Positions 7,933 through 19,526 of a DNA stretch of 36,521 nt are shown one piece after another. The DNA comes from Nitrospirota bacterium. Its GTDB lineage: Bacteria > Nitrospirota > Thermodesulfovibrionia > Thermodesulfovibrionales > UBA6898. Numbering within the stretch: position 1 is the first letter of the stretch; the number at the start of each line of letters is the position of its first letter. The position numbers and the translations under genes were made by a program. The DNA lies in contig JAJXTV010000034.1 of NCBI GenBank assembly GCA_021783515.1, positions 1 to 36,521 on the forward strand, given 5' to 3'. The notes beneath the pieces were generated by a model. It ran no database searches, was not told the DNA's origin, and saw nothing but the letters and a program-made list of their open reading frames with translations.

Positions 7933-8667
7933 TCAGGCCGACGGCCGCTCCCTTTTAATCCTGAGCGCCAGAAGGGTGCTCATCCCCGCAAGAAAGAGCA
8001 TGCCTCCGACGAGCGCCCAGACTGCGCCGGGGTCCCTGCTCAATTCGACAAGGGCCACGGGCGACTGCCGGAACTCGACCGTCTTTATATAGATCCCGTA
8101 TCCGTTTCGGAACGAGGGAGAGTTCGGCCCTATTACATTGCTCCTGACCGGGCTGCCGTCTTTCAGATACCGGATCTCTGCAGCCCAGTCGGTGACATAC
8201 CCCGAAGGCCCCACGTCGGCGCTGATCCGGTCGAAGACGACCGTTTCGTTGTCCGGAAGCGGCAGCGAGGCGCCTTCCGCGACGAATCCCGAGGCCCGGT
8301 AGCTCCCGTAGGAACTCAGAAGGTGGCCGAGCAGCACGAAAAGGAATCCTATGTGGATCACCTGCGGCGAGAGCACGAGGAGCAGGTTCCTCGCTCCACT
8401 CTTTTTTATCACCGAATCGACACTGCAGAAAAGGGTGTTGGCGGTGAGAAGAGACAGGACGGCTATCGCCGCCCAGAGCCACCAAGTGATACCGGCGGGG
8501 TTATCCGAAAGCCACCGAAAGAGCGGCATCATATGCAGCCCCTGAAACTCTTCCCTCATCGGCATGATGATAGAGCCGTACAAAAGTGCACAGAGCAGCG
8601 CCAGGAGCAGCCATATGGCGGTACTCAGCGATGCAAGGAATCCTGCTATTTTCTTCAGAATGTCCAT
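7933..8667 (-). CDS. resB: ResB-like cytochrome c biogenesis protein (short form)
   Basis: The 244-residue membrane protein has an N-terminal helix (LSTAIWLLLALLCALLYGS), two further helices (WWLWAAIAVLSLLTANTLFCSVD and VIHIGFLFVLLGHLLSS), a periplasmic beta domain of about 100 residues and a final helix (WALVGGMLFLAGMSTLLAL) after the typical SRDPG motif. It lacks the large insertions of full-length ResB/Ccs1 (about 450 residues) and matches the compact ResB of many anaerobes. In System II cytochrome c assembly, ResB and CcsA move heme across the membrane and attach it to CxxCH apocytochromes. ccsA stops one base upstream, which supports a functional pair. Confidence 0.85.
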   Translation of the reverse strand: MDILKKIAGFLASLSTAIWLLLALLCALLYGSIIMPMREEFQGLHMMPLFRWLSDNPAGITWWLWAAIAVLSLLTANTLFCSVDSVIKKSGARNLLLVLSPQVIHIGFLFVLLGHLLSSYGSYRASGFVAEGASLPLPDNETVVFDRISADVGPSGYVTDWAAEIRYLKDGSPVRSNVIGPNSPSFRNGYGIYIKTVEFRQSPVALVELSRDPGAVWALVGGMLFLAGMSTLLALRIKRERPSA

Positions 8668-8668
8668 C

Positions 8669-9418
8669 TCAAAACGAATGCGAGCTCTTCATCAGGAGGC
8701 TCACCCCCAGATACGTGAAGAGCACGATCACAAACCCGATTATCCCGAGTATGGCCGAAGGCCTTCCCATCCACCATTGCCGCAGCCTCGCATGGAGATA
8801 GAGGCTGTAGAAGAGCCAGAGGATTACCGTCCAGAGCTCCTTCGGCGTCCATAGCCAGTAGGTCCCCCACGCGTAATATGCCCATATCCCCCCAAAGACC
8901 ATCGCGGCCGAAAAAAGGCAGTAGCCGACGAGTATCGCCTTGTACTGAAGTGCTTCAGCCGTCGCGTCCCCAGGCCCCTCTGCCCTTCCTTTGTTCTTAT
9001 TTCGGCCGGAGGCGAGGAAGACTCCCCCCAGCACCGCGGCGATGCCGAAGAGGGCATATGCGAAGAAGGAGAGAGTGACATGCGCTTCGAACCAGAAGGT
9101 CTTCAGCACCGGGGGCAGCGGTCCGGCATGCGGCGGGAAGAAAAGAGACAGAAGGACGAAAAGCACCGACAGCATCAGCATCGGGAAGAGATGCCGGGAC
9201 CGGTCTTTCATCCCGAAGGTCATCGGCAGCGCGAAGAGGACTATCGCAAAAGAGAGGAAATAGAGCGTGTCGTGCGGCCCTATAATCGGAAGCCTCCCGA
9301 GCCGGGCCCCCCGGTAGAACATATAGGCTGCCTGTACGCCGAAGCCGGCAAAGACGAAGGCGATCCTCGAGTATCCGAATAAATAGAAGACGACGGGCAG
9401 CACCGGCAGAAGGATCAT
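8669..9418 (-). CDS. ccsA: CcsA/ResC-like cytochrome c assembly protein
   Basis: From the ATG at 9418, which overlaps the preceding stop as ATGA, the protein has 249 residues and about eight membrane helices. An in-frame ATG at 9433 is the alternative start. The tryptophan-rich heme-handling (WWD) segment reads WAYYAWGTYWLWTPKELWT, where the usual family form is WGxYWxWDPKE; the Asp is replaced by Thr (codon ACG). Flanking histidines expected to ligate heme are present (FEAHVTLSFFAY before it, YLHARLR after it). With ResB it forms the System II heme exporter/cytochrome c synthase. Together they are short members of their families. No c-type cytochrome gene is adjacent. Confidence 0.88.
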   Translation of the reverse strand: MILLPVLPVVFYLFGYSRIAFVFAGFGVQAAYMFYRGARLGRLPIIGPHDTLYFLSFAIVLFALPMTFGMKDRSRHLFPMLMLSVLFVLLSLFFPPHAGPLPPVLKTFWFEAHVTLSFFAYALFGIAAVLGGVFLASGRNKNKGRAEGPGDATAEALQYKAILVGYCLFSAAMVFGGIWAYYAWGTYWLWTPKELWTVILWLFYSLYLHARLRQWWMGRPSAILGIIGFVIVLFTYLGVSLLMKSSHSF

Positions 9419-10242
9419 TTCCCCGGGCTCCATGCCTCGCAGCCCCTCTTCCCTGAAGCGGTCTTCTGTATCAGAGACACCCTGTCGTTCAGTACCGCTT
9501 TGATCCCGCCGAGCTCCCCGTCGTCCGGCAGGAGGGCAAGCAATCGTGCGATGTAGTCGTTTTCCCCGAGCATACCGAACGACGCCGCGAAATTCAGGTC
9601 GTACACCCAGGAGAGCTGAAGGAGCGTAAAATCGTTGACGTTCCTGAGGGCGGAATGGGAAACGGACTTTCCCTTCAGGACGCATTCGACGATCTCTTTT
9701 GAGTATCCGGGGGTATTCGGCAGATCAAGGCCGACCGCTGCCGTCATCTCTTTTTTGCCGCCTTCGAAGAAGCCGAGAAAGATGCGCCATATGTCGAGCT
9801 TGTCGGCGTCCCGGACCAGACGGAGGAAGCAGAGGTCTGCTTCGGCGGGAAGGTCCGGCAGCGCAAAGGCGTTATGGAACCTGACGGCGTTGAGGACCGT
9901 CCGTTGCTCGTCCGGAGGAAGCAGCCGGAGGACCTTCTGCCCCGCCAGTATTTCCGCTCCGAGGGCGCCGTGGTTTACCGAAAGGGCGTCCCTGAACGTC
10001 TTATGCCGGGCATACTGGGGAAACCTCCCTATGTCGTGGAAAAGGCCGATCGTCTCTGCGAGAAGCACCCCCTCCGGCCCGAACTCCTCATCTATCGCCA
10101 GCTGCCGGATCGTCCGGCGGACCTGAAGGGTATGCTCTTCTTTCAGCAGTATGTTCTTCTGGTCGTCGGGGTCGGCCGAATAGAAGGACCTGACATAGTC
10201 CGAAAAAAAGGTCGTGAAGATCTCGAAATCGTTCGTTGTCAT
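9415..10242 (-). CDS. HD-domain phosphohydrolase
   Basis: The 275-residue protein has the HD superfamily metal ligands in order: His37 (KEEHTLQV), His69-Asp70 in GLFHDIGRFPQY, His91 and His123 in the middle helices, and Asp145 in VRDADKLDI. The GLFHDIGRFPQ and RFHN patterns match a group of HD hydrolases often annotated as metal-dependent phosphohydrolases; the substrate (nucleotide or cyclic nucleotide) cannot be told from sequence. No signal peptide, so cytoplasmic. It starts 33 bases after moaC and its stop overlaps the ccsA start. Its presence inside a cofactor/cytochrome operon does not by itself reveal its job. Confidence 0.82.
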   Translation of the reverse strand: MTTNDFEIFTTFFSDYVRSFYSADPDDQKNILLKEEHTLQVRRTIRQLAIDEEFGPEGVLLAETIGLFHDIGRFPQYARHKTFRDALSVNHGALGAEILAGQKVLRLLPPDEQRTVLNAVRFHNAFALPDLPAEADLCFLRLVRDADKLDIWRIFLGFFEGGKKEMTAAVGLDLPNTPGYSKEIVECVLKGKSVSHSALRNVNDFTLLQLSWVYDLNFAASFGMLGENDYIARLLALLPDDGELGGIKAVLNDRVSLIQKTASGKRGCEAWSPGK

Positions 10243-16957: not shown

Positions 16958-17044
16958 TGGTGCCGAAGGGGGGACTCGAACCCCCACGGCGTTTCCACCA
17001 CTAGACCCTGAACCTAGCGCGTCTGCCAGTTCCGCCACTTCGGC
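16958..17044 (-). tRNA. tRNA-Leu (anticodon CAG)
   Basis: Minus strand: GCCGAAG acceptor (17044-17038) pairs with CTTCGGC, followed by A and an encoded CCA (16958-16960). The anticodon loop TTCAGGG gives CAG. D-loop, long variable arm and GTTCGAGTC T-loop are present. Reads CUG codons. Confidence 0.95.
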
Positions 17045-17125: not shown

Positions 17126-17902
17126 CTATTTTTTGTCGATGGTGCTGATGATCTTGTCCGCATCGATCGCGCCGGGTACCAGGCTTCCATCCGGGAAGAT
17201 CAGACCGGGGGTGCCGGTGATGCCCAGCTTCTGGGCGAGTTTGATGTTTTCATCGATCGCGGTCGTCTCGCATGTCGGATCGGGTATCTGCTTTTTCGCG
17301 AACGCCTCATCGAGAAGTTCAAGCGACTTCGTGCACTGTATCGCCTTCGCTATCCGCGCGGAATCCTTATGCATCGGAAGGGGGTAGAGCATTATATAAA
17401 AGGCGATATCCTTCCTCTTTTCTATGACCTTCTTCATCTCCTGATGAAGTCGTGCGCAGAACGGTCACTCGGGGTCGTCGAAGACGATGATCTTGTTCTT
17501 CGCGTCCTTGTCGCCCATTACCAGGGCGTTGCCGAGCGGTATCTGGGAGACGTCGATCTTACTGATTTCGTCGAAACTTTCCTTGTAATAGTTGGTCTTT
17601 GTCTTCGCATCGATCAGATTGCCGAGAACGAGCATCTTCTTCCCGTAGTCGATATAGACGACGTTCTTCCTCCCGCCGGCTTCTATCGCCGTCTCCCAAA
17701 GCCCGATCAGGGGAGACTGCTTGATATAGAGCACCTTCACGTCAGGGGCGAACGGCTTCAATACTTCCTTCACCTGTTCGTCGGTGAGGGTATGGCACTT
17801 GATGCAGTCCTTTTCCTCCCCTTTGGGAAAGGCATAGGACTTTCCGCTTCCGAAAAGAAGAGCAATGGATACGGCCATCGCAATCAGTATCAACTTTCGC
17901 AT
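17126..17902 (-). CDS. DsbC-like periplasmic thiol-disulfide protein with in-frame TGA (probable selenocysteine)
   Basis: Read through TGA at 17465-17467, this is one 258-residue protein. Signal peptide: MRKLILIAMAVSIALLFGSG, cleaved near SYA. A CIKCH motif (Cys33, Cys36, His37) follows, then a DsbC-type N-terminal region (KVLYIKQSPLIGLWE, VVYIDYGKKMLVLGNLID) and a thioredoxin fold. The fold begins IIVFDDPE and has [TGA]PFC where DsbC/DsbG proteins have CPxC; TGA is codon 146, followed by Cys149. It continues through FYIMLYPLPMHKDSARIAKAIQC to the cis-Pro loop GITGTPGLIFPDG. The frame and homology continue without a break on both sides of TGA, and a suitable hairpin follows, so selenocysteine is more likely than a nonsense mutation. 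It would act in the periplasm in disulfide isomerisation or cytochrome c thiol reduction. If not recoded, the gene would be split into two useless halves. Confidence 0.82.
17432..17467 (-). promoter_or_regulatory. Candidate bacterial SECIS element
   Basis: After TGA (17467-17465) and 22 intervening bases, CTTCATC (17449-17443) pairs perfectly with GATGAAG (17438-17432) around the loop AGGA (17442-17439). Bacterial SECIS hairpins sit within the coding region shortly downstream of UGA and need a guanine early in a small apical loop; the E. coli fdhF loop begins AGGU. Stem, loop and distance all fit. SelB binding is inferred. Confidence 0.68.
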
Positions 17903-17908
17903 GGAGAA

Positions 17909-17917
17909 ATTATAGCA
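17909..17917 (-). promoter_or_regulatory. Extended -10 promoter abutting the selenoprotein start
   Basis: Minus strand TGCTATAAT (17917-17909) is a perfect extended -10. The ATG at 17902 comes only 6 bases later, so transcription would begin at or next to the start codon and give a leaderless mRNA. No Shine-Dalgarno is present before this ATG, which agrees. Confidence 0.5.
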
Positions 17918-18054
17918 CAAACATTTCCTGAAAAACACAAGCGAAACGGTCCGTCGTATTATTTAATTTCTCTGCGGAGCCCTTGCCGGGCGGCGGCCGT
18001 TCCGGCAGCAGGGGCGTTTCCGCCTTTTCGGGTCGGCAGCGCCCGGATATTTTA

Positions 18055-18152: not shown

Positions 18153-18449
18153 ATGAAATTAGGTGTATTTGTTAGTGATTTCAAACTGACAACGGATACC
18201 CTGGACAGGCTCAAGGCCGACAAACTTGGTATCATCCTTGTCCAGAACGGCGTGTACCATGCCACGACGAAGGAGAATGGAAAGGCCTCTTCTCTTTTGG
18301 ATAAAACGCCCAATCTCTATGCTCTGTCCGAGGACATACAGATTCGGGGAATGAAAGACGGAGACGTTGACAAGCGCGTCAAGGTCGTCAATTACGGCGA
18401 TGTGGTTGACCTTATTTTTAACGAATACGAAAAGATCGCGTGGCTGTAG
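18153..18449 (+). CDS. DsrH/TusB-like sulfur relay family protein
   Basis: 98 residues beginning MKLGVFVSDFKLTTDTLDRL, with a predicted Rossmann-like fold: a central strand (KLGIILVQNGVYHAT) and LYALSEDIQIRGM...VVNYGDVVDLIFN. This matches the DsrH/TusB branch of the DsrE family. The protein has no cysteine at all, whereas characterised DsrH carries a conserved Cys, so it may be structural rather than a sulfur carrier. GGGGGAAGG precedes the ATG. First gene of a four-gene operon; nine bases separate it from the next. Confidence 0.72.
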   Translation: MKLGVFVSDFKLTTDTLDRLKADKLGIILVQNGVYHATTKENGKASSLLDKTPNLYALSEDIQIRGMKDGDVDKRVKVVNYGDVVDLIFNEYEKIAWL

Positions 18450-18458
18450 GAGGATACT

Positions 18459-18818
18459 ATGGGAAATTTGACGATAGGCTGTTATCCAGGACTCGTTGGC
18501 AGCATGAGTTATGATTTTGCCATGAAACTCGCCGAGGCGGCGGTGGACAAAGGCCATAAGGTGAGTATCTGGTTTTCGGGAAATGCAACAGGCTCGGTCA
18601 AGGCCAACCAGAAGCACCTGAAGGATTATTCAACCGGCGAAAAACATCTGAAGGACCTTCTCGCAAAGGGCGTCGAGATCTGCACCTGCGAGGCCTGCAC
18701 CGTGGCAAGAGGCATCAAAAAGGACGAAGGCATCCCCGGCGTTCAGTGGAACGCGATGCACTGGTTTCTCGCAAAGGTGCACGCCGCCGACAGGGCACTT
18801 TTGATAGGAGGCGAATAA
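18459..18818 (+). CDS. DsrE/TusD-like sulfur relay protein
   Basis: 119 residues. The fold begins LTIGCYPGLVGSMSYDFAMKLAEAAVDKGHKVSIWFSGNAT, and a Cys cluster EICTCEACTVARGI sits where DsrE/TusD proteins carry the persulfide-accepting Cys. Two bases after the stop, the next gene begins. In sulfur oxidisers DsrEFH passes sulfur from TusA to DsrC. In gamma-proteobacteria TusBCD serves tRNA thiolation. Which of these holds here is unknown; no DsrC/TusE is in the window. GGAGG precedes the start. Confidence 0.8.
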   Translation: MGNLTIGCYPGLVGSMSYDFAMKLAEAAVDKGHKVSIWFSGNATGSVKANQKHLKDYSTGEKHLKDLLAKGVEICTCEACTVARGIKKDEGIPGVQWNAMHWFLAKVHAADRALLIGGE

Positions 18819-18820
18819 TT

Positions 18821-19231
18821 ATGAGCGACGTGAAACTTGCATTTGTCGTCCAGAAACCTCAGTACAAGGGAGAAACCTCGAGGCTTGCGATAACCCACGC
18901 GATCTCTTACCAGACGGTCGAGATCCTGCTCGAAGACGGCGAGACCGTAACCCCCAAGCTCTGTTTCATCGGCGAAGGGGTGCTCGGGCTCCAGAAGGGC
19001 CAGAACGCGATGGACCTCTACGGGATCACCAGCACCGAGTCTCATATGAAAAATACTCTCCTCGTCGACCTCGATGTGCTCGTCTGCAAGGAAGACCTTG
19101 CAAAATACGGTATCCCCGAGGACGCAATGCCGACCGCAGAGGATATGGGCGCGGACAAGTCGATCCAGGTAGTGCCGTTTGCAGAGATACAGAAAGCGGT
19201 GGAAGAAGCGAAACACGTCTTTTTCTTCTAA
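18821..19231 (+). CDS. DsrF/TusC-like sulfur relay protein
   Basis: 136 residues from ATG 18821, preceded by AGGAGG. The sequence SDVKLAFVVQKPQYKGETSRLAITHAISYQTVEILLEDGE, followed by GLQKGQNAMDLYGI and LLVDLDVLVCKEDLAKYGIP, fits the DsrF/TusC subfamily; the Cys in VLVCKEDL matches the family's accessory Cys position. An in-frame open stretch to 18746 overlaps the previous gene and lacks a ribosome binding site. With the two preceding proteins it could form a DsrEFH-type heterohexamer. Function is inferred from family. Confidence 0.78.
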   Translation: MSDVKLAFVVQKPQYKGETSRLAITHAISYQTVEILLEDGETVTPKLCFIGEGVLGLQKGQNAMDLYGITSTESHMKNTLLVDLDVLVCKEDLAKYGIPEDAMPTAEDMGADKSIQVVPFAEIQKAVEEAKHVFFF

Positions 19232-19274
19232 ATATTAATCACAAGGTCAATGACCTGCAAGGAGGTAAATACAC

Positions 19275-19526
19275 ATGGGTGAACTCAGCAGCAAGACACC
19301 GGATCAGACTCTCGACGTGCTTGGAAGGGTATGTCCCTATCCGCTCGTCCTGTCCAAAAAGGCGGTCGAAAAGATGTCCAGCGGGCAACTCTTGAAGGTT
19401 CTCTGCGATGCGCCTGCATCGGCGGAAGACTCGATTCCGAAATGGGCAGAGAAACAGGGCTTAAAGTTCGAGTCCGTCAAGGTGGCAGGCTCCGACTCCT
19501 GGGAACTCTATATCCAGAAGTCGTAA
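19275..19526 (+). CDS. tusA: TusA/SirA-family sulfur carrier
   Basis: 83 residues with the defining motif DVLGRVCPYPLVLSKKAVEKM, in which the CPxP cysteine carries persulfide sulfur. The second half (GQLLKVLCDAPASAEDSIPKWAEKQG ... WELYIQKS) is the usual alpha/beta two-layer sandwich. GGAGG lies upstream of the ATG. It is the last gene before a strong terminator. As sulfur donor to DsrE-like proteins in the same operon it completes a relay: TusA to DsrE to an unseen acceptor. Confidence 0.92.
   Translation: MGELSSKTPDQTLDVLGRVCPYPLVLSKKAVEKMSSGQLLKVLCDAPASAEDSIPKWAEKQGLKFESVKVAGSDSWELYIQKS

Follow-up and report, generated by a model that had tools for sequence, protein, structure and literature searches.

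Selenocysteine (Sec) is a rare, 21st amino acid. Two described kinds of selenoprotein that carry it in a UxxC motif come closest to the locus analysed here. The 'thiol:disulfide interchange protein' selenoproteins, which belong to PF13098, are described from Geobacter metallireducens, G. uraniireducens and Syntrophus (PMC1794560, PMC13188914), and a 'DsbG-like' UxxC selenoprotein is classified under COG1651 / NF041057 (PMC1088965, Sargasso Sea; PMC1794560; PMC13188914). No description of Nitrospirota members of the present family was found in the literature searched.

The window, which is the whole stretch of 36,521 nucleotides that was analysed, belongs to a Nitrospirota MAG of 3.16 Mb that is 98.7% complete. 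One of its loci is read here, with a probability of about 95%, as a single gene for a DsbC-type thiol:disulfide isomerase/reductase with Sec as its catalytic nucleophile; export and activity are predicted from the sequence. This reading follows from four lines of evidence taken together: a TGA within a conserved frame, a hairpin linked to that TGA, the presence of the Sec machinery and a DsbC-like architecture.

The gene and its protein

The features of the locus, all of which are on the minus strand, are the following.

17902..17126 (-): dsbC-like gene with a Sec codon; start ATG, stop TAG; 258 aa, of which residue 146 is U
17831..17902 (-): predicted signal peptide, about residues 1-24 (...GSGKSYA/FPK), from the sequence and an N-terminal helix in the model
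17792..17806 (-): N-terminal CxxCH (CIKCH, residues 33-37), from conservation in homologues
17591..17782 (-): DsbC_N-like domain, residues 41-104; Pfam PF10411, E 1.8e-7, 31.1 bits against a cut-off of 25
17147..17509 (-): thioredoxin-fold catalytic domain, residues 132-252; PF13098, E 5.4e-21; AlphaFold pLDDT about 97; Foldseek match to DsbC
17467-17465 (-): in-frame TGA, codon 146, the first active-site position; TGA or TGC/TGT in the homologue column
17458-17456 (-): TGC codon of Cys149, the resolving residue of the UxxC site; invariant in the homologue alignment
17449-17432 (-): SECIS hairpin CTTCATC-AGGA-GATGAAG; stem starting 15 nt and loop 22 nt after the TGA
17333..17335 (-): Cys190, first of the second conserved Cys pair; invariant, aligned with a Cys of solved DsbC
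17270..17272 (-): Cys211, second of that pair; invariant, aligned with a Cys of solved DsbC

A sequence-only reading had placed a DsbC-like selenoprotein at positions 17126-17902 without giving a strand. The coordinates are borne out on the minus strand; the plus strand of the same interval was also considered and yields no such protein. The Sec assignment of that reading is supported too; the reading mentions neither the strand nor the N-terminal CxxCH, nor how widely the family is distributed, nor the UxxC Dsb-like selenoproteins already in the literature.

The whole frame contains one TGA, and translation ends at TAG, the true stop. The codons that follow the TGA (CCG TTC TGC) complete a U-P-F-C active site (U146-P-F-C149), which agrees with the proposal that the TGA occupies the position of the first catalytic Cys in a DsbC/DsbG-like thioredoxin fold and that Cys149 is retained. 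Frame and homology had also been said to continue across the TGA, and they do: all 258 residues are in one frame and the protein matches of homologues run through it. The homologues in three further genomes of this genus are 76-78% identical over residues 1-258, and each has one TGA, in the same place. With the standard code the Sec gene locus gives two ORFs, 17465-17938 (157 aa) and 17126-17437 (103 aa), which is the split by gene callers that had been foreseen; the gene of this enzyme would be divided in the same way in many genomes.

The best Pfam match of the protein is PF13098 (Thioredoxin_2), with 75.3 bits against a cut-off of 27. The top fold matches of the AlphaFold model (pLDDT 92, pTM 0.73) include DsbC and, after it, DsbG, and the catalytic domain of the model alone superposes on a DsbC-type protein at 2.6 Å. 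DsbC is the best solved relative both by sequence (full length, E about 1e-23) and by fold (E 4e-14). Features typical of the DsbC/DsbG isomerases are present, namely the thioredoxin fold, the CxxC-type site, the cis-Pro loop, the second Cys pair and DsbC_N, which is the dimerisation domain in DsbC. The DsbC cysteines that match Cys190 and Cys211 are those that we take to form its structural disulfide. The score against the NCBIfam DsbC equivalog NF008129 is far below the cut-off (64 versus 215 bits) and the protein is therefore called DsbC-like, with its function assigned by architecture only.

Next to the gene is a divergent sulfur-relay set, comprising DsrH-like, two DsrE-like and TusA genes (window positions 18153-19526, plus strand); it was considered as a clue to function and rejected, these genes not being kept beside the homologues. 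A tRNA-Leu(CAG) gene (16958-17044, minus strand) lies just downstream, an order that recurs at six other loci (L105-L109 and L111). Further away (7933-9685, minus strand) are ResB-like and CcsA-like genes for cytochrome c assembly of the system II type. At ten of the loci compared a DUF3842 gene is directly upstream of the dsbC-like gene, and at four it is beside tRNA-Sec; no mention of DUF3842 was found in the literature searched. A PADLOC search gave no match.

Distribution of the family and Sec machinery

A homologue is present in 58 of 61 related genomes, with two or three paralogues per genome, and the active-site column is occupied by TGA, TGC or TGT and nothing else. When named genomes were scanned, the family turned up chiefly in MAGs with the label Nitrospirae or Nitrospirota, and its TGA form also in two labelled Deltaproteobacteria (L133 and L141), in both of which tRNA-Sec is present. 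The family occurs in 119 of 296 sampled Nitrospirota genomes; among the matches listed, the TGA forms belong to the order and class of the window and no TGA was seen in other Nitrospirota classes. In a sample of 297 genomes from the phylum of L133 the family is found in 91, three of which have the TGA form.

The sel genes on which the sequence-only reading depended are all present in the genome of the window: selA (598.5 bits), selB (372.7 bits), selD (346.4 bits) and tRNA-Sec (67.6 bits) each score above the curated cut-off, selA adjoins selB on contig C25, and the tRNA was identified by ARAGORN as tRNA-SeC with anticodon TCA. The selD gene of this genome (contig C22, 1771-2688) contains a TGA in frame as well, with a hairpin spaced similarly from it; in almost every genome of the order SelD is likewise a selenoprotein encoded with such a TGA.

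Most of the TGA-bearing genomes among the 61 searched have the full set of Sec machinery. No clear tRNA-Sec was found in four TGA-bearing MAGs (G008, G011, G012 and G019), the match in G058 is borderline only (47.7 bits), and two others (G015 and G057) lack selA as well as any selB above the cut-off. Assembly gaps are the likely cause of these absences; since G012 is a single-contig assembly, a missing small contig is not an easy explanation for its absent tRNA-Sec.

The hairpin and the reading of the TGA

The 7-bp hairpin with an AGGA loop, reported to lie 22 nt downstream of the TGA, is seen at 17449-17432. The window has a single instance of the pattern of TGA, 15 nucleotides and stem-loop-stem, and 100 shuffles gave none. 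Minimum free energy was rejected as proof of the hairpin, because the single hairpin folds with an ordinary energy that is not significant alone (z = -0.76); the argument rests on placement and conservation, not on energy. An Rfam search of the hairpin gave no match to a SECIS family; its sole match was a sub-threshold purD motif on the opposite strand.

The hairpin was compared across the distinct homologues from the 61 genomes and the named-genome scan, 66 of which have TGA and 77 TGC or TGT. All seven stem pairs are intact in 66/66 TGA genes versus 3/77 Cys genes. Double-sided changes, from TA to CG, are found in TGA genes at pair 6 (three sequences) and pair 3 (one sequence), and L141 is among the sequences that have such a change. 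Within the stem, synonymous codons for residues that are the same in both groups are fixed in the TGA genes only. With relatives counted as independent, the Leu codon is CTT in 49/49 TGA genes versus 10/31 Cys genes (p 4e-12), the Lys codon is AAG in 49/49 versus 19/41 (p 5e-10) and the His codon is CAT in 47/49 versus 21/41 (p 7e-7). Well-supported branches of the tree force at least nine switches between Sec and Cys, and of nine independent pairs, eight have the hairpin going with Sec, none the reverse, and one is a tie (sign test p 0.008). The tree with its independent comparisons removes most of the concern that kinship inflates the codon p values. The placement and conservation of the hairpin exceed chance, and the pattern of changes indicates that it is under selection at the RNA level.

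The three Cys genes with a complete stem are L021 (TGT), L159 (TGC, Nitrospinota) and L147 (TGC). L021 and L159 retain the exact Sec-type stem, while that of L147 is a variant with one G-T pair. The hairpins of L021 and L159 look like fossil SECIS elements; tRNA-Sec was not found in the Nitrospinota genome of L159. SECIS remnants have previously been described in FdhA and HesB-like genes (Zhang et al. 2006, PMC1794560).

The TGA could in principle come from a true nonsense mutation or from a sequencing error in TGC/TGT, with the hairpin a coincidence, which is how the two ORFs of standard gene calling would be understood and with which this one window, taken alone, is compatible. The same TGA column, with no further in-frame stop, is however found in dozens of assemblies across many families, and an alignment of homologues, proposed by the sequence-only reading as a check, shows the column to hold either TGA or a Cys codon, with the hairpin kept where there is TGA and mostly lost where there is Cys. 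The conserved column and the linked hairpin refute a pseudogene or sequencing error, to which we assign a negligible probability. Decoding of the TGA as some other amino acid, whether through an altered genetic code or through SECIS-independent suppression, would equally account for a TGA that is read through within a conserved frame. It is just as improbable, as TGA alternates with Cys codons only and occurs nowhere else inside these proteins, the genome has complete Sec machinery, the hairpin is tied to the TGA, and SelD of the same genome has the same kind of TGA and hairpin. Sequence comparison strongly supports the insertion of Sec at UGA146.

Function, the N-terminal CxxCH and known systems

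If the TGA is read as Sec, SelB carrying Sec-tRNA-Sec would bind the hairpin 15 nt downstream and insert Sec at UGA146 in place of termination. The protein would be exported and would probably dimerise through its DsbC_N domain; the selenolate of U146 would attack wrong or unwanted disulfides and C149 would resolve the intermediate. The reduced state would probably be kept by a thiol transporter of the CcdA/DsbD type, and the genome of the window has two DsbD_TM/CcdA-type genes. A periplasmic role as isomerase or reductase, together with export, dimerisation, isomerase instead of oxidase activity and the electron donor, is what we infer from DsbC; no conserved gene neighbourhood that would support the role was found around the homologues.

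Of 169 homologues, 145 have the CxxCH motif, shortly after the signal peptide. The His is retained in 145 of the 147 homologues that have both Cys, and all three residues are lost in 19, such that the motif, adjoining the DsbC fold, is conserved or lost as a unit. As in c-type cytochromes, there is a CxxCH motif and the cell has cytochrome c assembly genes, with export predicted from the N-terminal sequence. The motif is possibly a heme c site; alternatively, its cysteines may act as a thiol pair and relay electrons to the active site. In the homologue alignment, no His or Met column that could supply a second heme ligand is lost together with CxxCH, and the invariant H153 and H178 persist where the motif is absent. 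It is a tentative proposal, which we regard as improbable on balance, that the protein carries both Sec and covalent heme c and that the CxxCH site, next to the DsbC_N domain, couples periplasmic thiol/selenol exchange directly to the electron transport chain. If true, there would be a family of heme-coupled seleno-disulfide isomerases/reductases across the Nitrospirota and Desulfobacterota.

Instead of acting as a general isomerase, the selenoprotein might chiefly reduce or oxidise a particular partner, for instance in cytochrome c maturation or sulfur/metal redox. The CxxCH could then bind heme in the protein itself or imitate its apocytochrome substrate. The conservation of the motif as a unit at the N terminus, the CcsA- and ResB-like genes within the window and the two to three paralogues per genome, which suggest specialisation, all point that way. 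Against it are the DsbC architecture over the full length, the lack of cytochrome c or sulfur genes as conserved neighbours, and the absence of a second His or Met ligand co-conserved with CxxCH. We consider such a specialised role possible but rather unlikely, and the DsbC-type isomerase/reductase with a Sec nucleophile is retained as the preferred reading.

Among described selenoproteins, the protein resembles the 'thiol:disulfide interchange protein' group in having PF13098 with UxxC, a comparison made by family definition only (PMC13188914), and Sec forms in the Deltaproteobacteria are common to both. With the 'DsbG-like' selenoprotein it shares UxxC and the Dsb type, and the NCBIfam model NF041057 of the latter gave no match to the window protein up to E 10. 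As UxxC selenoproteins of the Dsb type are already described, the protein joins a known kind, and this placement is well supported. With it, the use of Sec by Dsb-type enzymes extends to a large phylum, most of which is uncultured, and the family provides a natural experiment of unusual clarity, in which, over at least nine Sec/Cys switches, the SECIS hairpin is kept or lost in step and some Cys genes still have it.

Among solved systems, DsbC of E. coli and Salmonella (PDB 1eej, 4ilf) is the closest and DsbG (PDB 1v57, 2h0g) the next. Like DsbC, the protein has a signal peptide, a DsbC_N-type domain and a thioredoxin fold, with a CxxC-type site followed by LH, a second conserved Cys pair and a cis-Pro loop TP. 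Identity to DsbC is about 21% and the overall TM about 0.46, a whole-chain value expected to reflect a different domain arrangement in the monomer model. Unlike DsbC, it has Sec in place of the first active-site Cys, a conserved His178 and an extra N-terminal CxxCH, which beside a DsbC fold poses a testable question on heme-linked disulfide chemistry.
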